A stretch of 64,000 bases of DNA, taken from Tomitella fengzijianii. Lineage in GTDB: Bacteria > Actinomycetota > Actinomycetes > Mycobacteriales > Mycobacteriaceae. The stretch is from positions 2,352,679 to 2,416,678 of the forward strand of contig NZ_CP041765.1 of assembly GCF_007559025.1 (NCBI RefSeq), given 5' to 3'. Position numbers and translations under genes: made by a program. Below are positions 1,765 to 16,653 of this stretch, one piece after another; position 1 is the first letter of the stretch, and every line of letters begins with the position of its first letter. Under the pieces are notes generated by a model. That model was not told the origin of the DNA. It ran no database searches and saw nothing but the letters and a program-made list of their open reading frames with translations.

Positions 1765-4700
1765 CTAGTCGGTGACGGGCACGTCGCCCAGGTCCACCCC
1801 GCGCATCCGCTGGGAGATGACCTGGGTGATCCCGTCGCCGCGCATGCTCACCCCGTACAGGGCGTCCGCGATCTCCATGGTGGACTTCTGGTGGGTGATC
1901 ACGATCAGCTGGGAACGCTCGCGCAGCTGCGTGAACAGGCTGATCAGCCGGTTGAGGTTGACCTCGTCGAGGGCGGCCTCCACCTCGTCCATGACATAGA
2001 ACGGGGACGGCCGCGCGCGGAAGATCGCGACGAGCATCGCCACGGCGGTCAGCGACTTCTCGCCGCCGGACAGCAGCGACAGCCGCTTGACCTTCTTGCC
2101 CGGCGGGCGGGCCTCCACCTCCACCCCGGTGGTCAGCATGTCGTTCGGGTCGGTGAGGACCAGGCGCCCCTCGCCGCCCGGGAACAGCGTGGCGAACACG
2201 TCGACGAACTCGCGCTCGACGTCCGCGTAGGCCTCGGTGAACACCTGCAGGATCCGCGCATCCACCTCGTCGACCACGTCGAGAAGATCCTGGCGCGCCT
2301 TCTTCACGTCCTCGAGCTGCGTGGCGAGGAAGCTGTAGCGCTCCTCCATCGCCGCGAACTCCTCCAGCGCCAGCGGGTTCACCTTGCCGAGCGTCCGCAG
2401 GTCCTTCTCAGCCTGCTTGGCCCGGCGGATCTGGGTGGCACGGTCGAACGGCATCGGCGCCGGCGCCACCACCTGTTCGCCGCGTTCGCGCGCCTGTTCG
2501 TACTCGGCCATCTCGAGCTCCGACGGGGGCAGCGCGATGTGCGGACCGTACTCTGCCACCAGGTCGTCCGGGGCCATGCCGTTCTGCTCGAGGATCTGCT
2601 CCTCGAGCTGCTCGATGCGCAGCGCGATCTTCGCCCGGGCCATCTCGTCGCGGTGCGCCGCGTCGGTGAGCGTGTGCAGCGATTGCGTCAACTCGGTCAC
2701 GCGCCCCCGCGTCTCGCGCACGCGCTCGGAGCGCTCGACGCGCTGGGCCTCCAGGTCGTCCCGCCCCTGCGCGGCCGACGACACCTCGGCCGCCAGCCGC
2801 TCCGCGACCTTCTCCCCCATCTCGGCGACGACGGAGGCGACGGCGGCAGCCTTCCGACGTCGCAGCCGCGCACGCTCGGCCCGTTCCCGCGCCTGACGTT
2901 CGGCCGCGGCCGAACGGCGCAACGAATCCGCCCGCCCGCGCAGGGCGGCCGCGCGCTCCTCCGCGGTCCGCAGCCCCAACCGGGCCTCCACCTCTATGGC
3001 GCGCGCCTCCGACACCGCGGCGACCGCGTCGTCCCGCGCCTCCGCCAACGCGCCGTCGCCCGCCTCCTGCTCGTCGTCCCCGGGAATGGACTTCTCGGCC
3101 AGGCGCAGGCGCTCCTCCAGCCCGGTCAGCGCGGCGACCGTGTCCTCGCGGCCGGCCTCCGCCTCCTGCCGCTGCCTGCTCAGCCGCCCGTGTTCGGCCT
3201 CCGCGGCGCGGGCGGACTGCCCCAGCCTGCCGAGCTGTTCATACACGGCCGACATGGACGCATCGGACTCCGTCAGCGCCGCGAGCGTCACCTCGGCGTT
3301 CTCCCGCCGCACGTCCTCCTCGGCGACCGCCCCGGCCAGCGCGGCAGCGAGTTCCTCGGCGCGCGCGGCCGCGGCCACGGCCGCCTCGCCCGCCTCGTCC
3401 ACCGCGGCCTGCACCTCGAGCATGCTCGTGGCCGACTCCGACCCGCCCACCGACCAGCCGTGACCCACCAGGTCGCCGTCGCGCGTGGCGACCCGCACCC
3501 CCGGGGACGCCTCGACCGTGCGAAAAGCCGTCTCCAGGTCGTCGACCACCGCGACCCGGGACAGCAGCGACCGCACCGCCGCGCCCAGGTCGCCGTCCAC
3601 ATCGACCAACGATTCCGCCCACAGCGCGCCACCGGCGGGCGCACCGCCGTCGACTCCCGGCGCGGACTCCCCCGCCACCGTGGTGATGAGCGCGGCGCGG
3701 CCCGCGTCCCCCTCCTTCAGCGCCGCGATCGCCTCGGCCGCGGAGCCCGCATCACGCATCGCCACCGCCTCCGCCGCGGGACCGAGCGCCGCGGCGATGG
3801 CGCGCTCGTAGCCGGCCCGCACGCGCATGCGCTCCGCGAGCCGGCCCACCACCCCGTCCGCGGACGCCTGCGCGGCGCCGGGTTCCGCCGCGGAACCGTC
3901 GCCCAGGCCGGCACGCTCGAGCAGCCACGCGGCGCCGTCCTTGCGCGCGAGACTCATCTCCAGCGCCTCGATGCGGGCACGGAGCGACACCACCTTCTGC
4001 TCCGCCTCCCGCTCGCCGGCACGCAGCTCGGCCACCCGCGCCTCCGCGGCCTCGAATGCTGCGGCGGCGCGCTCGTGATGCTCGTCCAGGGCGGCCTCGT
4101 CTCCCTCCAACTCGTCCGCCTGGGCCTGCGCCTGCTCGAACTCGCGGTGCGCCGACACGGCACGCTCCTGCGCCTGCACCATCGCCTCGGTGAGGCGCGT
4201 CACCTCCGCGTCCACGGATTCCGTGCGGCTGCGCAGCGTGTTCACCTCGCCGACCAGGCGCGCGAGCCCCTCCCTGCGGTCCGCCACCGCCCGCACCGCG
4301 GCCACATGGGCGCGGTCGGCCTCCGCGGCGACCTGCTCGCGTTCGTCGAGTGCCTCGCGCGCGGCGTCGAGCACCTCGGCCGCCGATTCCACCGACTGCT
4401 CCAGCTCGGCCTCCTCCTCGGCCGCGCGCTCCGCCTGGCGGTCCAGCTCGTCGGGGTCGCGCCCCGGTGACTGCTGCTGCTCCGTGGCCAGGGTGGAGGC
4501 ACGGTCGTGCGCGATGCGCACGGTGGCGTCGACCCGTTCCGCCAGCGCCGAAAGGCGGAACCACGATTGCTGTGCGGCCTTGGCCTCCGGCTCCAGCCGC
4601 GCGAGCGCCTCCTCGTCCTCCGCGAGCCGCCCGGCGGCGTCGTCCTGCTCCGCCTGCGCCGACTCGAGCTGCGCGCGCAGCTCGGCCTCCTGCGCCGCGC

Positions 4701-5430
4701 CCTGCTCCATCTCGGTGCGGCGCGCGACCAGGTCGTCCGCCGCCAAGCGCAGGCGCGCGTCGCGCAGGTCGGCCTGCACGGTCTGCGCGCGCCGCGCCAC
4801 CTCCGCCTGCCGTCCTAGCGGCTTGAGCTGGCGCCGCAGCTCGGTCGTGAGATCCGTCAGCCGGCTGAGGTTCGCCTGCATCGAGTCGAGCTTGCGCACG
4901 GCCTTCTCCTTGCGGCGGCGGTGCTTGAGCACCCCCGCCGCCTCCTCGATGAAGGCCCGGCGCTCCTCCGGGCGCGATTCGAGGATGCCGGTGATGCGGC
5001 CCTGGCCGACGATCACGTGCATCTCGCGGCCGATGCCGGTGTCGCTGAGCAGCTCCTGCACGTCCATCAAGCGGCACGACGAGCCGTTGATCTCGTACTC
5101 GCCGCCGCCCTCGCGGTACACCCGGCGGGTGATCGACACCTCGGAGTACTCGATGGGCAGGGCGCCGTCCGCGTTGTCGATGGTCAGCGTCACCTCGGCG
5201 CGCCCCAGCGGCGACCGCCCGGAGGTGCCGGCGAAGATCACGTCGTCCATCTTGCCGCCGCGCAGCGCCTTGGCGCCCTGCTCACCCATGACCCAGGTCA
5301 GCGCGTCGACCACGTTGGACTTGCCCGACCCGTTGGGGCCCACCACGCAGGTGATCCCAGGCTCGAACCGGAGCGTGGTCGAGGACGCGAACGACTTGAA
5401 GCCCTTGAGCGTGAGGCTCTTCAGATGCAT
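1765..5430 (-). CDS. smc: Chromosome segregation ATPase SMC
   Basis: A 1221-residue structural-maintenance-of-chromosomes protein that, with ScpA/ScpB, compacts and segregates the chromosome. The N-terminal Walker A motif GPNGSGKSN is at residues 31-39. Two long Ala/Glu/Arg-rich coiled coils flank a hinge near residues 510-670. The C-terminal head carries [10 protein letters not shown] and the Walker B region [12 protein letters not shown]. The start is set at ATG 5430 ([14 protein letters not shown]), the standard SMC N-terminus; an in-frame extension to 5487 is open but not conserved. It follows acyP by 81 bases on the same strand and precedes ftsY, as in M. tuberculosis, with the diiron oxygenase gene inserted between them. 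Confidence 0.97.
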
Positions 5431-5511
5431 CCGCCACGGCTCCCAGAGACGACGCATCCGCTCCCGACGATCATGGTCCTGAACCATACCGGCAGGTACC
5501 CGCGGCGGCGC

Positions 5512-5805
5512 TCATCGTTCGACGAACCCGTCGAGTCCGCCGCGCGGCGCGCCCCAGGAGGCGACGACGTTGTCGACGCGCCCGGGCGTGCCGCCCGACT
5601 CGAGCAGCTCCAACAGCCGCCCGCACGCGGCCGACGGCCCCTCGGCGACGACGAGGACGCGCCGGTCCACCGTGTTCGTCGCGCTGCCGACCAGCCCGAG
5701 TTCGAGCGCCCGCGAGCGTGTCCACCAGCGGAAGCCGACACCCTGGACGTCGCCGTGCACCCACGCGGTGAGCCGTGCCGGGTCGCGAATCGGATCGGAC
5801 GTCAC
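5512..5805 (-). CDS. acyP: Acylphosphatase
   Basis: A 97-residue acylphosphatase, which hydrolyses carboxyl-phosphate bonds. The catalytic region reads VHGDVQGVGFRWWTRSRA; the family's key Arg and Asn appear as GFRWW and SATNTVD. GTG 5805 is the start because it overlaps the upstream OsmC gene's stop by four bases (GTGA), a translational-coupling arrangement, and because the protein then has the usual family length. The long open frame extending upstream is a shadow of the OsmC gene. The acyP-smc pairing is widespread in actinobacteria, but no functional link is established from sequence. Confidence 0.93.
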   Translation of the reverse strand: MTSDPIRDPARLTAWVHGDVQGVGFRWWTRSRALELGLVGSATNTVDRRVLVVAEGPSAACGRLLELLESGGTPGRVDNVVASWGAPRGGLDGFVER

Positions 5806-6245
5806 GAGTCCGCCCGGATCTCCAGTTCCACCTCGGCGCCCCGCTTGACGGTGCGCCCCACCGTGCACACGCGGTCGACCGCGCGCTCGACGACCACCAG
5901 CAGCCGCTCCTGGGCATCCGGCGTGAGTTCGCTGAGGTCCAGCTCCAGGACCTCGCTGAGCACCGGATACCACTCGTTGTCGCGGTCCGCGTCCCCGGAG
6001 ACGCGGACCGTGGCGTCGTAGTCGTCGCCCAGCCGGCGCGAGAGCGGCTTGTCCGAGCTCATCGCCGTGCACCCGGCCAGCGCGATCTTGAGCAGCTCCC
6101 CCGGCGTGAACACGCCGGGCACGTCCTCGGAACCGATGAGCACCTCGGCCCCCCGTGAGCTGCGGCCGGTGTAGCGCCTCGTGCCCGTGCGCTCCACTGT
6201 GAGTTCGGTGTGCGCGACGGCGTCCTGTTCAGTCATGACCGACAT
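5802..6245 (-). CDS. OsmC/Ohr-family peroxiredoxin-like protein
   Basis: A 147-residue OsmC-family protein. The two cysteines of the family are visible in ALAGCTAMS and DRVCTVGRTV, consistent with thiol-dependent reduction of organic hydroperoxides. GGAG seven bases upstream supports ATG 6245; a second ATG at 6236 is the alternative. It overlaps acyP by four bases and likely heads an OsmC-acyP-smc transcription unit. In M. tuberculosis the equivalent gene (Rv2923c) lies directly beside mutM; here 9.4 kb of accessory DNA intervenes. Assignment to the general OsmC group is firmer than a specific Ohr versus OsmC call. Confidence 0.9.
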   Translation of the reverse strand: MSVMTEQDAVAHTELTVERTGTRRYTGRSSRGAEVLIGSEDVPGVFTPGELLKIALAGCTAMSSDKPLSRRLGDDYDATVRVSGDADRDNEWYPVLSEVLELDLSELTPDAQERLLVVVERAVDRVCTVGRTVKRGAEVELEIRADS

Positions 6246-8972: not shown

Positions 8973-11201
8973 TCACTCCCGCAGTGCGCGTCCCGTCGAG
9001 GTGTCGCCGATGCCGTCGACGAGCCCCGTGTAAAGCACCCGTCCACCGTGGCGGCCGGGGCCGGGGCCGAGGTCGATGAGCCAGTCGGCCACCCGGATCA
9101 CCTCGAGGTTGTGCTCGATGACGACGACGGTATGGCCGTGGTCGATGAGGTCGTAGAGTACCGATATGAGCCGTGCGGTGTCGCTGAGGTGCAGTCCCGT
9201 CGTCGGCTCATCAAGCAGGTAGATGCTCGGCTCGATCGCGTCCCGCAGCTCCTTCGCGATCTTCACCCGCTGCGCCTCACCCCCCGAGAGCGTGTTCAGC
9301 GGCTGCCCCAGTGCGAGATAGCCCAGCCCGACCCGGTCGAGGTGCACGAGCCGCGACCGTATCGCCGGCTCAGCGAGCCGATCGATCGCCTCGCTGACCG
9401 TCAGGTGCTCGACGTCGGCGATGGACAGCCCGTCGACGGTGTGGGCAAGCGCCTCAGCGGTGAATCTCGCCCCCTGGCACGTCGGGCACGTCGTCTCCTG
9501 CACGTCCATGAACGCGAGATCGGTGTAGACGATTCCGAGGCCTTTGCACACCGGGCAGCCGCCGTCCGAGTTCGCGCTGAACAGTCCGACGGCTGCACCG
9601 GTGATCCTTGAGAAGTGCCTTCGCAGCGCCTGCGCGATGCCCGTGTACGTGATCGGAGTCGATCGACGATTGGCCGACACCGGCTTCTGACCGATCGTGA
9701 TCGCCCCGTGCTGAGCCGAGAGTTCGGCTGCCAGACTCGACTTTCCGGATCCTGCGACCCCGGTGAGGACGGTGAGCACACCGCGGGGAATGTCGACGGT
9801 GACGCCGTCGAGGTTGTTCGTCCTCGCATTCACGATCGTGGCCCAACCTGTCGGGCTCCTCGGCGTCGGCGTCGTCGGCGCAGGTGCCCTCAGTGCTCGG
9901 CCCGTCGGTCCGTCCGAGTCGAGGAGACCGCGGAAGCTTCCCTGGAACACAAGGCGGCCGCCGTCGCGGCCGGGTCCGGGGCCGATCTCGATGATCTCGT
10001 CGGCGCAGGCCATGACGGCGGGGTCGTGTTCGACGACGAGGACGGTGTTTCCACGGTCGCGAAGCCGGCAGAGAACCTCGACCATCGCGGCGACGTCGTG
10101 GGGGTGGAGTCCCACGGTCGGCTCGTCGAAGACGTAGAGCATCTCGATGAGGCTCGACCCGAGGTGCTTGACGGCCTTGATGCGCTGGGACTCACCGCCG
10201 GAGAGAGAGGAGGTTGCGCGGGCGAGGTGGAGGTACCCGAGGCCGATCCCATCCATTGCGTCGAGTCGCTCGAGCAGGGCGGCGGCGACGCTGGCCACCT
10301 CCGTCCGGCCCAGACGCGCCACCACGTCGCGCAGTTCGGGGATTTCGATGCGGGCCAGTTCGCCGACCGTGCGGCCGTCGACGGTGGCGCTCCGGGCGGC
10401 CGCATTGAGGCGCTCGCCATGGCAGTCCGGACACATCGTGGAGCGGGTGAACTCGGCGACCGTCTTCAGCTTGCGTTCGGAGACCGTCTCGGAGGTCCGC
10501 AAGTAGATCCGCTCGAAGCGGTCGGCAACGCCTTCGTAGTCCTTCGGCACTTCGACGGCGAGGGACTCGGCCCAACGCCCGCCGTAAAGCAGGGCGTCGA
10601 CGTGCTCCCGGGGCCAATCGCCCAACGGCGCGTCGACGGCGAAGACTCCGAGCTCCGCGTACTTCCGGTACCAATACCGGCCCTCCCCGAAGCCGGGCAG
10701 GACGATCGCTCCTTCGTCGAGCCTGCGGCCCAGGTCGAGGAACTTCTCGACGTCGGGCGCGACGACCTCCCCGATCCCCGAACAGGTCGGGCACATGCCC
10801 GAAGGGTCGTTGAAGGAGAATGCCGAGGACTCGCCGACGTGCGGCTTGCTCAGCCGGGAGAAGATGAGACGTAGATACGTCCAAGTGTCGGTGACCGTGC
10901 CGACGGTCGAGCGCGCGTTTCCGCCGAGTCGTCGTTGACCGATGACGATGACGGGTGAGAGCCCCTCGATGCTGCCGGCCTCGGGCCGCGTCCACTTGGG
11001 CAGGCGATTGCGGGTGAACGGCGGGTAGGTCTCGTTGAGCTCGGCACCCGCCTCGGCTGCGATGGTGTCGAAGACCAACGACGACTTCCCCGAACCGGAG
11101 ACGCCTGCGATGACGACGAGGAGACCCCGACGGATGTCCAGGTCAAGGTGGTCGAGGTTGTTCGTCACGGCTTGTCGGATGCGAATGGTCCGGTCACTCA
11201 T
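8973..11201 (-). CDS. Short UvrA-like ABC ATPase (UvrA2/DrrC type)
   Basis: A 742-residue, two-nucleotide-binding-domain protein related to UvrA but about 200 residues shorter than excision-repair UvrA. Domain I has GVSGSGKSSLVFD, LSGGESQRIKA and YVFDEPTVGLHPHD; domain II has GVAGSGKSSLAAEL, LSGGEAQRVKIAKEL and IYLLDEPTTGLH. Zinc-module cysteine pairs remain (CPTCSG, CPDCHG, CPVCKG, CPTCQG). Such class-II UvrA proteins lack the full UvrB-binding region and are linked to tolerance of DNA-intercalating drugs (DrrC of Streptomyces is an example). It is divergent from a broken WYL-type regulator, probably its former controller. Confidence 0.9.
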   Translation of the reverse strand: MSDRTIRIRQAVTNNLDHLDLDIRRGLLVVIAGVSGSGKSSLVFDTIAAEAGAELNETYPPFTRNRLPKWTRPEAGSIEGLSPVIVIGQRRLGGNARSTVGTVTDTWTYLRLIFSRLSKPHVGESSAFSFNDPSGMCPTCSGIGEVVAPDVEKFLDLGRRLDEGAIVLPGFGEGRYWYRKYAELGVFAVDAPLGDWPREHVDALLYGGRWAESLAVEVPKDYEGVADRFERIYLRTSETVSERKLKTVAEFTRSTMCPDCHGERLNAAARSATVDGRTVGELARIEIPELRDVVARLGRTEVASVAAALLERLDAMDGIGLGYLHLARATSSLSGGESQRIKAVKHLGSSLIEMLYVFDEPTVGLHPHDVAAMVEVLCRLRDRGNTVLVVEHDPAVMACADEIIEIGPGPGRDGGRLVFQGSFRGLLDSDGPTGRALRAPAPTTPTPRSPTGWATIVNARTNNLDGVTVDIPRGVLTVLTGVAGSGKSSLAAELSAQHGAITIGQKPVSANRRSTPITYTGIAQALRRHFSRITGAAVGLFSANSDGGCPVCKGLGIVYTDLAFMDVQETTCPTCQGARFTAEALAHTVDGLSIADVEHLTVSEAIDRLAEPAIRSRLVHLDRVGLGYLALGQPLNTLSGGEAQRVKIAKELRDAIEPSIYLLDEPTTGLHLSDTARLISVLYDLIDHGHTVVVIEHNLEVIRVADWLIDLGPGPGRHGGRVLYTGLVDGIGDTSTGRALRE

Positions 11202-14246: not shown

Positions 14247-14388
14247 TCACCGTCTCCGCTGGCAGCGGGGGCAGAAGTAGCTCGAGCGGTTCATGAACTG
14301 CGCCCGCTCGATCGGGGTGCCGCACCGTCGGCACGGCTCCCCCGCACGCCCGTAGACGTTGAGGCTCCGGGAGAAGTACCCCGACTCG
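14247..14388 (-). pseudogene. Duplicated 3' end of mutM (zinc-finger segment only)
   Basis: On the minus strand this segment encodes [18 protein letters not shown], then [12 protein letters not shown] and [12 protein letters not shown], with its own TGA at 14247. It matches the last 47 or so residues of the intact mutM at 15667-16653, including all four zinc-finger cysteines. At the DNA level 14257-14386 aligns without gaps to 15689-15818, with about 18 mismatches in 130 by hand count. Homology begins abruptly at the SGYF codons and no upstream mutM coding sequence is present. The copy is the distal boundary of the islet between the two mutM ends. Confidence 0.85.
14257..14386. repeat. Direct repeat, distal copy (mutM-tail repeat)
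   Basis: This 130-bp segment is the left member of a direct repeat; the right member is 15689-15818 inside mutM. Two long identical runs are shared: 14287-14306 with 15719-15738 (20 bp) and 14357-14381 with 15789-15813 (25 bp). Either could have served as a recombination core. Confidence 0.8.
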
Positions 14389-14406
14389 ACTCGTTTGTGA
14401 CATCGA

Positions 14407-14444
14407 TGAATCGTCAGTCGAATGATCATTCGACTGACGATTCA
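14407..14444. repeat. 38-bp perfect palindrome
   Basis: The left arm is TGAATCGTCAGTCGAATGA and the right arm is its exact reverse complement, with no loop. It starts 29 bases after the HepT stop codon and about 20 bases from the duplicated mutM tail. It could terminate the minus-strand hepT transcript, form a cruciform, or be a recombinase-recognition site at the islet edge. Long zero-loop palindromes are rare in chromosomal DNA. Confidence 0.75.
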
Positions 14445-14472
14445 ATGAGGTGTCTGCACGTTCTGGGTCGGA

Positions 14473-14769
14473 TCAGTCGTCGGCGACGTGGTCCCGCAGC
14501 GCCTCGGCGAGCGGCGGGAGGTAGGTGTCGACGACATCGCGGACAACATCGACGTCGACCCCGAAGTACTGATGGACGAGGATGTTGCGGAGTCCTCGGA
14601 TCTGTGGCCAGCCGATCTCCGGGTGCGCGTCGGTGATCTCCGCCGGGAGATGGTTCACGGCTTCGCCGATGATCTGCAGGTTGCCCTCGATCGCGTCCTC
14701 GGCCATCTCCACGACATCCCCATCGCCGTCCAGAGCGCCGACATACCGACGGCACCGCTCGACGGCCAC
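14473..14769 (-). CDS. hepT: HepT-like HEPN-domain toxin (DUF86)
   Basis: A 98-residue HEPN ribonuclease of the DUF86/HepT family. The active-site motif R-x4-H-x-Y is visible as RNILVHQY; in the HepT-MntA systems studied so far the toxin cuts RNA and is silenced by AMPylation of this Tyr. GTG 14769 is the only standard start codon after the preceding in-frame TGA, yet the twelve codons before it (AWRVTDVL and so on) look family-like, so the N-terminus is uncertain or slightly degraded. It follows mntA by 36 bases on the same strand, the usual two-gene layout. Confidence 0.85.
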   Translation of the reverse strand: MAVERCRRYVGALDGDGDVVEMAEDAIEGNLQIIGEAVNHLPAEITDAHPEIGWPQIRGLRNILVHQYFGVDVDVVRDVVDTYLPPLAEALRDHVADD

Positions 14770-14805
14770 CAGGACGTCAGTGACGCGCCAGGCCGGCGTC
14801 GCGGC

Positions 14806-15135
14806 TCACAACGCGACCGCGTCGGCGAGGGCGGAGGCCGGGATCGGGCGCTTGAGCAACTGCACCGGGAACACGTCGATGTCGTCGCGACCGAACAGTG
14901 CCTGCGTTTCCTCCATCAGTCCGGAGGCCCGCATGAGGAGATTGCCGTCTTCGGGATCCATCTCGACGAGGATGTCGATGTCGGAGTCAGAGTGCGCGGT
15001 GCCCCGAGCGACGGAGCCGAAGAGCTTCGGATTGGTCGCGCCGTACTTGACCAGCAGCGCCTGAAACTCGCCTCGGCGCTCCTCGATGGGCTCGCGCAGG
15101 GCGAGCGTCTCGGGCGTCACGACGGTCTTCGGCAT
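14806..15135 (-). CDS. mntA: MntA-like minimal nucleotidyltransferase antitoxin
   Basis: A 109-residue MNT-type nucleotidyltransferase. The catalytic motif GSVARGTAHSDSDIDILVE shows the GSX10DXD signature needed for nucleotide transfer. In characterised pairs MntA neutralises HepT by transferring AMP to the toxin's tyrosine. ATG 15135 opens the gene and a TATCCT hexamer lies only a few bases upstream, suggesting a leaderless or near-leaderless transcript. Both genes appear intact, so the module could be active. It sits between the duplicated mutM ends. Confidence 0.88.
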   Translation of the reverse strand: MPKTVVTPETLALREPIEERRGEFQALLVKYGATNPKLFGSVARGTAHSDSDIDILVEMDPEDGNLLMRASGLMEETQALFGRDDIDVFPVQLLKRPIPASALADAVAL

Positions 15136-15326
15136 GCCTTCAGGATACCGGCAACGCGCCCGTCACAGCCAGGATCCGAGGGCCACCGCCTCATCGACGA
15201 ACCGCCGGATCTTCGCCCTTGTTTGACCTCACCATCCAAGTGTCTGGTTCTCGTTCCGACCGTGACCATTCGGCGAGACGGCGTGCCTTCCTCAACCGAG
15301 TAGGCGAGCGATACCGTCAGGAAACC

Positions 15327-15354
15327 TGGACTCGGGCCCGCTCCGCGCTATCCT
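15327..15354 (+). promoter_or_regulatory. Possible promoter ahead of the Abi_2 remnant
   Basis: TGGACT (15327-15332) and TATCCT (15349-15354) are separated by 16 bases. Transcription would begin near 15361, just before the hairpin at 15367-15397. The -10 match is good and the -35 match is moderate. Confidence 0.4.
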
Positions 15355-15403
15355 CGCATCATCACCATCAGCCCGTTGCCACAAGACGCGGGCTGATTTT
15401 CTT
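15355..15403 (+). ncRNA. Candidate small RNA upstream of the Abi_2 gene remnant
   Basis: Directly after the promoter-like hexamers there is a 9-bp stem, ATCAGCCCG (15367-15375) and CGGGCTGAT (15389-15397), with a 13-base loop, followed by TTTCTTT. This is a terminator-like end 21 bases before the Abi_2 start codon. Abi_2/AbiF genes in other bacteria are known to carry a conserved small RNA immediately upstream (the abiF RNA motif), so the arrangement may be a relic of such an RNA-toxin system. Only position and shape are seen; covariance with that family was not tested. Confidence 0.3.
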
Positions 15404-15417
15404 TCCCGGCGAGGACC

Positions 15418-15666
15418 ATGACGGAGTACACGAAGCCGTGGCTGTCCGTTGACGAGCAGATCGATCGACTGTCAGGGCACGGGGTCGAAATCGAGGATCG
15501 CGGCCGAGCCGCGTCGGTTCTGCAGGCGGCCGGCTACTACCGCCCCACCGACTACCACTACCCGTTCCGCGAATCAGCGACCTGCGTCGGCGATCAAGGT
15601 CGCGCGCAGATCCGGATTCTCTGCGAATACATGGTGGTTCTCTTGCAGACCCGAGCGAGCAGGCTT
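15418..15666 (+). pseudogene. Truncated Abi_2/AbiF-family abortive infection gene
   Basis: ATG 15418 opens a frame whose first 70 or so residues look like the N-terminus of Abi_2-family HEPN proteins: MTEYTKPWLSVDEQIDRL, RAASVLQAAGYYRPTDYHYPF and GRAQIRILCEY. After about 15628 resemblance ends and the frame runs into mutM antisense sequence. Full-length family members are about 300 residues, so more than three quarters is missing, including the expected HEPN catalytic motif. The gene therefore cannot be functional; it marks the junction between the islet and the mutM 3' end. Confidence 0.7.
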
Positions 15667-16653
15667 CTACTTCGCGGTCCGCGGTCTGCGCTGACACTTC
15701 GGACAGAAGTAGCTGGAACGGTTCATGAACTGCGCCCGTTCGATGAGGGTGCCGCACCGCTTGCACGGCTCCCCCGCCCGCCCATAGGCGTTGAGGCTCC
15801 GGGAGAAGTACCCGGACTGCCCGTTGACGTTGACGTACAGCGCGTCGAAGCTGGTGCCGCCCTGCGCGAGCGCGTCGGCCATGACGTCACGGGCGGCTTC
15901 GACGACGCGGGTGAGCGCCGGGCGGCTGAGCGTATTCGCCGGCCGGGCGCCGTGCACGCGGGCCCGCCACAGCGCCTCGTCCGCGTAGATGTTGCCGATG
16001 CCGGAGACCACCGTCTGGTCCAGCAGCAGGCGCTTGATCTCGGAGCGCTTCGACTTGAGCACGCGCACCACCCCGGCGACGTCGAACCGCGGGTCCATCG
16101 GGTCGCGCGCGATGTGGGCGACCGGGGCGGGCACCGACGTGCCGTCCACGTCGACGAACGGCGCCGGAAGCCACCAGCCGAAGGTCCGCTGGTCGACGAA
16201 CTCCACGCGCACGTCGTCCGTCTCCCCCGGAGCGCAGCCCAGGACGAGCCCGGCCCGCAGGTGCCGGTGCGGCATGGCATGCTCCGCCACTGCCCCCTCC
16301 GACGCCGTACCGACCGACACGGGAACATCCGGCACCGGGCCGCCTGCCGTGTCGCGGACGAGCATCTGCCCGCTCATGCCCAGGTGCACAACGAGAGCGG
16401 ACCGCCCGTAGTCGTCGGCCGCCGCGCCCGGCACGGGTGGCGGCGCGCCGGCCAACTCGAACCACAGGTACTTGCCGCGGCGGCCCACGTCGGCGACGAC
16501 GCCCCCGGCGAGCCACGCCGCCATCGCCTGCGCGCCCGGCTCGAACCGTCGCGCAGTCCGCTCGCTGTGGACGGCGGCGGAGACGATGCGCCGCCCGCGG
16601 ACGTGCGGCGCCAGCCCGGCGCGGACCACTTCCACCTCGGGAAGCTCAGGCAT
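15667..16653 (-). CDS. mutM: Formamidopyrimidine-DNA glycosylase (Fpg/MutM)
   Basis: A bifunctional DNA glycosylase/AP lyase removing 8-oxoguanine and formamidopyrimidines. The catalytic N-terminus [13 protein letters not shown] is intact and a C-terminal zinc finger is present (GEPCKRCG then [11 protein letters not shown]). At 328 residues it is 40 or so longer than typical family members, mainly through a Pro/Gly-rich insertion near residues 75-90 and another in the [17 protein letters not shown] region. It begins 9 bases after rnc ends. Its 3' end carries the proximal copy of the 130-bp repeat shared with 14257-14386. Confidence 0.96.
15689..15818. repeat. Direct repeat, proximal copy (inside mutM 3' end)
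   Basis: Right member of the 130-bp direct repeat described at 14257-14386. Here it is part of the intact mutM gene and encodes the zinc finger. The pair brackets about 1.3 kb carrying the HepT-MntA pair and the Abi_2 remnant. Confidence 0.8.

Follow-up and report, generated by a model that had tools for sequence, protein, structure and literature searches.

Our analysis of a 64,000-nt stretch of the Tomitella fengzijianii genome (contig NZ_CP041765.1; hereafter the window) indicates that the 3′ end of the DNA repair gene mutM is a docking site for mobile cargo. In the window this 3′ end is present twice, and the 1,432-nt unit between two TCnGG cores very probably represents a small element, intact or reduced to a remnant, which integrated into mutM at the Ser280 codon by conservative site-specific recombination, with a large serine recombinase (LSR) as the most likely enzyme. 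In such an event, a circular element with a mutM 3′ end of its own would recombine with the host mutM at Ser280. The host gene would keep its 5′ part and gain the zinc-finger tail of the element in frame, and the host's own tail would be left at the far end of the insert as an orphan.

The two copies lie in direct orientation at 14252-14386 and 15684-15818, are 135 nt long and 86% identical with a spacing of 1,432 nt, and form the sole long direct repeat between 12500 and 18000. By blastn their identity is 85.9% (19 mismatches in 135; E = 3.7e-41), and the alignment contains identical runs of 25 and 20 nt, in agreement with the duplication described in a first-pass annotation of this DNA. The full mutM gene (15667-16653, minus strand, Pfam match) encodes an H2TH domain at residues 181-268 and a zinc finger at residues 294-322. 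Its 5′ part (15817..16653, minus strand), which has Pfam matches to Fapy_DNA_glyco and H2TH, is the host portion and ends at the crossover; over the 110 codon columns ahead of the crossover it shares 94% nucleotide identity with the congener G003. The mutM-side crossover core, TCCGG (15812..15816, minus strand), covers codons Ser280-Gly281 and is followed by the 3′ tail with the zinc finger (zf-FPG_IleRS) and stop codon (15667..15811, minus strand). At the distal end, the orphan mutM 3′ tail with its stop (14247..14379, minus strand) was delimited by the repeat, Pfam and identity comparison, and it is preceded by a TCGGG core (14380..14384, minus strand, placed by comparison) and by the distal element half-site CGATGTCACAAACGAGTCGAG (14385..14405, minus strand, from the half-site comparison). 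The orphan open reading frame (ORF; 14247-14429) matches zf-FPG_IleRS in Pfam (E 6.9e-12) and has kept both zinc finger and stop.

The boundary of the orphan tails recurs at the same codon. When 32 non-redundant orphan copies were aligned to full genes, the best-fit start of homology fell no more than 4 nt from the Ser280 codon in 22, in a set that leaves aside L059 (a full gene with a broken frame), includes three tails away from mutM, and contains related, non-independent elements and several fits with wide intervals. In addition, three hybrid mutM genes (L032, L075 and L088) follow the usual sequence as far as TCnGG and then switch to an unrelated-looking tail. Together, the convergence of the orphan starts and the switch in the hybrid genes confine the crossover to TCnGG. 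This position corresponds in the protein to the linker between H2TH and the zinc finger, and TC is found at Ser280 in 68 of the 79 full mutM genes compared. The shared Ser280 boundary fits site-specific recombination better than gene conversion.

The sequence ahead of the orphan core is also partly shared. Over the 21 nt before the core, mean pairwise identity among 35 sequences is 0.354, versus 0.258-0.281 at offsets 21-50, and GTCACA occurs at -17, within one mismatch, in 9 of the 35 (one place being counted twice). This set drops 12 locus labels (copies, the truncated G205 orphan, the G328 gene with its broken frame, and L089, whose flank duplicates that of L074) and adds L155, L157, L158 and L134, the last being the same place as L135. 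The window half-site agrees at 16 of 21 positions with L090 and L135, at 14 with L075, and at 13 with the LSR element L078. In the stretch immediately past the half-site, TTCGACTG motifs are arranged in inverted orientation in the window and directly in L033:8380-8399. The two window motifs lie next to the distal att site in an inverted repeat (14400..14451, no strand assigned) whose 26-nt arms are 88% complementary, and such motifs are possible binding sites for a helix-turn-helix (HTH) protein.

The arrangement recurs well beyond the window. A MutM search of 61 genomes found tail-only copies in other genera, and a tail survey of 401 family genomes with a 54-aa query was followed by rescanning 120 genomes with at least two matches, from which the intervals were read. 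Because the rescan covered 120 genomes rather than every one with at least two matches, the orphan counts for the family are lower bounds. An orphan tail downstream of mutM was found in 25 genomes, mostly picked for extra matches, so that this number is not a frequency (the window, G004, G035, G053, G305, G099, G323, G065, G395, G083, G375, G198, G101, G336, G183, G119, G092, G076, G124, G205, Corynebacterium glyciniphilum, G706, G724, G916 and G853). OsmC, acylphosphatase or smc lies behind the orphan in 24 of the 25, with none of them in the stretch covered for G205, and mutM and orphan are on separate contigs in G004, G065 and G101. Only the Gordonia counts given here and the order- and class-level samples described below for the HTH_17 protein can be used as frequencies. 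An extra MutM-tail copy is present in 11 of 59 Gordonia genomes; 12 had at least two matches, G195 was left out because its second match (start 33119) is paralogue-like, a weak G724 match was also left out, and the extra copy of G358 is a longer partial gene. As a control, an extra copy of a segment of RNase III, the gene adjacent to mutM, was found in 0 of 59. Among 18 comparison loci (L137-L154), of which 8 show both mutM and OsmC, only L139, which is G205, has an orphan.

The first-pass annotation had proposed the mutM 3′ end as an integration hotspot, and orphans with other cargo at the same place in many genomes bear this out. The finding that it named as speaking against a hotspot, one unchanged copy at constant spacing throughout the close relatives, was not seen: the congener G004 has an orphan with other cargo, and G001 (81% complete), G002 and G003 show a full mutM only. 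All 79 full-gene tails retain the four zinc cysteines, as do 27 of the 33 tail-only copies, a set that includes L059. The mutM gene of G328 (Gordonia; L096:1407-2284) matches in two frames, an apparent frameshift, with no orphan behind it. Several mutM-locus arrays hold a complete extra mutM gene (L032:7300-8139, L075:3039-3872, L087:14787-15641, L088:6482-7321 and L161:13413-14279). These genes, from different genera, are of a distinct type with YVDVAGSSG before the zinc finger in those aligned, and they look element-borne.

MutM-tail matches were also obtained in 26 phage-collection and 56 plasmid-collection records, of which the best phage match was examined, and a scan of viral_contigs with the MutM tail gave no relative. 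In scaffold MT835574, a complete Abi_2 gene stands between mutM and an orphan tail that has the same boundary. This record, from a faecal sample, is labelled 'Bacteriophage sp.', and its region L168 (MT835574.1:54508-66636) has a coaD-like gene, RNase III and mutM in chromosomal order; judged by this gene order, it is probably a mislabelled actinobacterial chromosome scaffold.

In two relatives, identity to a close genome tells the host tail from the acquired one. For G004 compared with its congener G003, identity is 96% in the 5′ part, 57% in the mutM tail and 95% in the orphan; for G119 compared with G025, the values are 94%, 63% and 95%. Across 2,926 pairs of 77 genes, tail minus 5′ identity averages 0.007 (standard deviation 0.068), which makes G004 and G119 strong outliers. 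As judged by identity, this shows the orphan in both genomes to be the host's own tail and the tail on mutM to be foreign. Tails are also shared across greater distances, as for G004 and the Gordonia genome G099 (65% in the 5′ part, 82% in the tail) and for G065 and G101 (68% and 83%). Tail sharing alone is weak evidence, because pairs without a known insert show a similar excess (up to 0.198). The first-pass annotation had suggested computing which copy is native; within the window identity gives no separation, both tails being 89% identical to the closest congener, G003. Because the two are equally close, the direction of displacement in the window is read by analogy. Following the topology of G004 and G119, the window mutM tail (15667..15811) would have come in with the islet, and the window orphan would be the native tail that the islet displaced.

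LSR genes stand at the site in two genomes. In G065 (L078), a 470-aa LSR with Resolvase and Recombinase domains (PF00239 and PF07508) starts about 40 nt from the orphan; its best PDB match is the TP901-1 integrase catalytic domain, and the mutM contig of this genome has a marginal relaxase match. In G724 (L159), a 62-64% identical relative, likewise with PF00239 and PF07508, lies about 40 nt from the orphan. This Gordonia genome has the element, about 22 kb, on one contig, with mutM at 630 kb and the orphan at 652 kb, and the element encodes a MOB-type relaxase (PF03432), a TraG-D_C coupling protein, a DUF5906/D5-like protein and an HTH_17 protein. The G065 and G724 elements are candidates for complete elements, and their LSRs would be predicted from position to act at a mutM attB. 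By analogy, an LSR of this family would have inserted the window islet. The LSR query had no match in the plasmid collection at E 1e-40, matched 29 phage-collection records at E 1e-30 (about 30-34% identity among the 20 listed) and matched eight viral_contigs sequences at 33-43% identity, none with a MutM match. As a separate observation, L074 and L089, loci from two genera with orphan-like tails remote from mutM, share neighbour genes, and similar genes, judged by eye, occur in the G724 element.

Several observations weigh against insertion of the window islet by an LSR at Ser280. The window islet and nearly all other islets are without a recombinase. When 168 loci and the first 20 kb of the window were searched by tblastn, L078 (the same as L098) and L159 (the same as L155) were the only mutM loci with an LSR match, and among the 401 family genomes, with at most four candidates scored in each, G065 alone has a mutM match in its LSR flanks; the other 21 family LSRs (45% identity or less) have no mutM match in the roughly 1.5 kb of flank read. 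The best-fit boundary lies outside 4 nt in 10 of the 32 orphan copies, and four orphan-like tails lie away from mutM (L074:7629-7772, L089:6637-6903, L095:9880-9978 and L097:9521-9619). The identity comparisons are not uniform either. In G035 versus G005, the 5′ part and the mutM tail are both 92% identical and the orphan 88%, with the last codons and stop of the orphan, not those of mutM, matching G005; in G092 and G076 versus G027, the tail is 59-60% and the orphan 62% identical; and the two window tails stand equally close to G003. Finally, the MntA-HepT pair of G053 has an orphan before it and none after, and the HTH companion found at other mutM loci is absent from the window islet.

These points leave room for other readings. 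The first-pass annotation had offered element integration and recombination with a foreign allele side by side; the common boundary and the LSR genes beside orphans speak for site-specific integration rather than allele exchange. Under homologous recombination, a fragment from a related species, circular or linear and carrying mutM and cargo, could have entered through a single crossover and left a partial second copy, and the same topology, diverged tails and the complete extra mutM genes of some arrays (L032, L075, L087, L088 and L161) would all be expected. Such crossovers, however, should spread over about 900 nt of mutM, whereas most orphans start beside one codon; the orphan flanks share a half-site in fixed register, with GTCACA at -17 in 9 of 35, and an LSR gene stands at the junction in two genomes. 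We therefore consider homologous recombination improbable. An old tandem duplication of the mutM end in the window lineage, with cargo arriving later by unrelated events, would agree with the 89% identity of both window copies to G003, but it is very hard to credit given that MntA-HepT precedes an orphan in Gordonia and Corynebacterium, that Abi_2 does so in another actinobacterial scaffold, that the congener G004 has other cargo and a different foreign tail, and that in three congeners only a full mutM was found.

The identity of the enzyme can be questioned separately. A tyrosine integrase or other non-LSR recombinase could have inserted the window islet, the two LSR elements being latecomers at a hotspot. 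This reading has in its favour that no more than two LSR elements were found there, that the half-site of the window matches that of the LSR element L078 at 13 of 21 positions versus 16 of 21 for L090 and L135, where no LSR was found, and that a tyrosine integrase (PF00589) lies near the remote orphan of L074. However, a tblastn search with that integrase as its single query, which distant integrases could escape, gave no match in the rest of the 168 loci or in the first 20 kb of the window, and in two genomes an LSR gene starts right beside the site. Unequal flanks around a short shared core are, moreover, typical of LSRs. On balance we regard a non-LSR enzyme as unlikely, and insertion by an LSR at Ser280 is the reading used below.

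The cargo of the window islet was described in the first-pass annotation as HepT-MntA with a broken Abi_2 gene, and both parts of this description hold. The HepT toxin (14473..14769, minus strand; Pfam 4e-21) carries the RX4HXY motif as RNILVHQY; alignment to relatives indicates that a 1-nt insertion has shortened its N-terminus and that the catalytic motif is retained. Beside it is an MntA-type MNT nucleotidyltransferase antitoxin (14806..15135, minus strand; Pfam 8e-10), in which GSX10DXD was read from the sequence. The pair thus has PF01934 with RX4HXY next to PF01909 with GSX10DXD, the two motifs by which HepT/MntA toxin-antitoxin systems are defined in the available portion of PMC7641770; compared with the system described there, the window pair is cargo only and its HepT has a short N-terminus. 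The MNT protein matches PADLOC PDC-S09, and HepT has no PADLOC match. On the strand opposite to mutM, an ORF at 15418..15666 (plus strand) has no Pfam match even at E 5; it aligns over 71 aa at 68% identity to the Pfam-confirmed Abi_2 protein of L168 and over 50 residues at 46% to another Abi_2 protein, from L091, and on the basis of these alignments it is an Abi_2 N-terminal fragment.

Both kinds of cargo recur at mutM. In the genome_contigs scan, MNT relatives occur at five loci, four of them downstream of mutM (Skermania, Gordonia asplenii, Gordonia liuliyuniae and Corynebacterium glyciniphilum) and three directly before an orphan; no mutM is shown for the fifth, from Brevibacterium. MntA-HepT directly before an orphan tail thus recurs in Gordonia and Corynebacterium, the orphan of G. 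liuliyuniae being 27 aa only, and a further copy in another family (L037; G053) lies behind an orphan. The G. liuliyuniae pair has 95% nucleotide identity to that of the window over 811 nt, and the sequence just behind the window mutM stop is also common to this species, which suggests that tail and cargo travelled together. In MT835574, Abi_2 is the sole cargo gene called between mutM and orphan. Because each of the two window cargo types is found singly at mutM elsewhere, the window islet may be two former islets fused, perhaps by deletion. Other islets carry, by profile, type I restriction (L083), a type IIG-like gene (L037), AbiD (L091) and a PDC-S06 ATPase (L073), and, judged by eye only, HipA/HipB-like pairs, arsenic genes and copper genes. 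Among six relatives of the MntA-HepT pair, HepT is broken or truncated in four (L120, L121, L122 and L123, versus L037 and L124), and all six have an MNT match of 104 aa or more; from these sequences, it is the toxin HepT that appears to decay before MNT.

A small HTH_17 protein accompanies many of these loci. The protein or its remains lie close upstream of the orphan in L033, L083, L087, L088, L091 and L092, and close upstream of the complete extra mutM in L032 and L075. Blind searches, in which at most 11 (order) and 15 (class) candidates were scored per genome, returned 2 of 397 order-level genomes (G099 and G706) and 2 of 296 class-level genomes (G916 and G853). All four matches fall in the mutM locus, three directly upstream of the orphan and that of G099 (L075) upstream of the extra mutM. 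At E 1e-3, neither the phage nor the plasmid collection contained a match to the L033 protein. By family resemblance the HTH_17 protein would be of the excisionase type, with a corresponding putative role.

The mutM islets resemble several known systems. The staphylococcal cassette chromosome (SCC) uses serine recombinases, inserts at the 3′ end of the housekeeping gene rlmH, and includes composite and recombinase-less islands. The mutM islets share the serine recombinases, the 3′ end of a housekeeping gene and the composite and recombinase-less islands; they differ in the target, mutM rather than rlmH, and in the much longer replaced tail. One LSR query found no serine recombinase in the first 20 kb of the window, and no ccrAB pair was seen at mutM, where no profile search was aimed at ccrAB. 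In the parts of PMC5704250 available to us, a cis-mobilizable element (CIME) keeps attL and attR, has lost integration and transfer genes, lies beside the site of complete elements, and can accrete in tandem. The window islet keeps both cores (15812-15816 and, positioned by comparison, 14380-14384), and between them are the mutM tail, the Abi_2 fragment, MntA and HepT, with no LSR, tyrosine-integrase or HTH match; at the same site, related LSR elements that may be complete occur in G065 and G724. Since both recombined sites are present and there is no recombinase, the islet is best described as a CIME-like remnant, which would depend on help in trans to move, if it can move at all. Unlike the CIMEs of that source, as far as its available parts describe them, the right half of its att site is the coding tail of a repair gene; any mobilization of it in trans is putative.

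The closest described architecture that we found is that of the Dehalococcoides ssrA islands, which, in the consulted text of PMC3146451, are serine-recombinase elements in a single-copy gene, arranged in tandem, with repeats of the gene 3′ end and variable cargo. Their repeat is 20 bp of an RNA gene, whereas the mutM repeat is about 135 nt of diverged coding sequence and includes a whole zinc finger. Actinobacterial integrative and conjugative elements (AICEs) with serine recombinases, some of them in protein genes, appear in the accessible main text of PMC3218068. The mutM elements are likewise actinobacterial, conjugative in part by gene content, and inserted in a protein gene; the G724 element differs from the AICEs covered there in its MOB-type relaxase and TraG-type coupling protein. 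By word look-up, mutM is not named in the main text of PMC3218068 or in the accessible text of PMC10083194, PMC10654092 and PMC8092301. Among the papers listed by our searches, which did not extend to subscription papers or supplementary tables, we found none naming a mutM attachment site, and LSR catalogues may list such sites.

With these findings, the docking sites of serine-recombinase elements come to include a conserved, protein-coding repair gene, whose entry point can be read from sequence. A host protein is rebuilt as a chimera, its whole zinc finger swapped in one case for a tail only 57% identical. In addition, the mutM site predicts where accessory defence genes are located, and two LSRs with a defined site are now available for testing. 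It is tempting to speculate, although we hold this wider picture to be doubtful, that lineage-specific MutM tails, joined in some cases by complete element-type mutM genes, travel on the elements as portable parts, so that the host 8-oxoguanine repair enzyme is rebuilt with the zinc finger of the element at each insertion, that the site-confined HTH_17 protein lets recombinase-less cassettes move in trans, and that mutM serves as an integron-like dock for defence and resistance cargo across Actinomycetes.

Around the islet, the usual order in the relatives compared is mutM, OsmC, acylphosphatase and smc, with OsmC or others absent in some. In the window, acylphosphatase and OsmC (5512..6245, minus strand), recognized by synteny as native downstream neighbours, form the outer edge of the variable region, and smc (1765-5487) lies beyond them. 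The gap between mutM and OsmC is about 9.4 kb, and the congeners G003 and G004 have other genes there. Across the whole window, scans for Rfam families (gathering threshold) and for tRNAs returned only two tRNAs, near 43 kb. Within the mutM-OsmC interval, a UvrA-like gene (8973-11201) has an 84% identical relative (L162:5039-7342) in G853, which belongs to a different family of the class and has that relative close to its mutM orphan.

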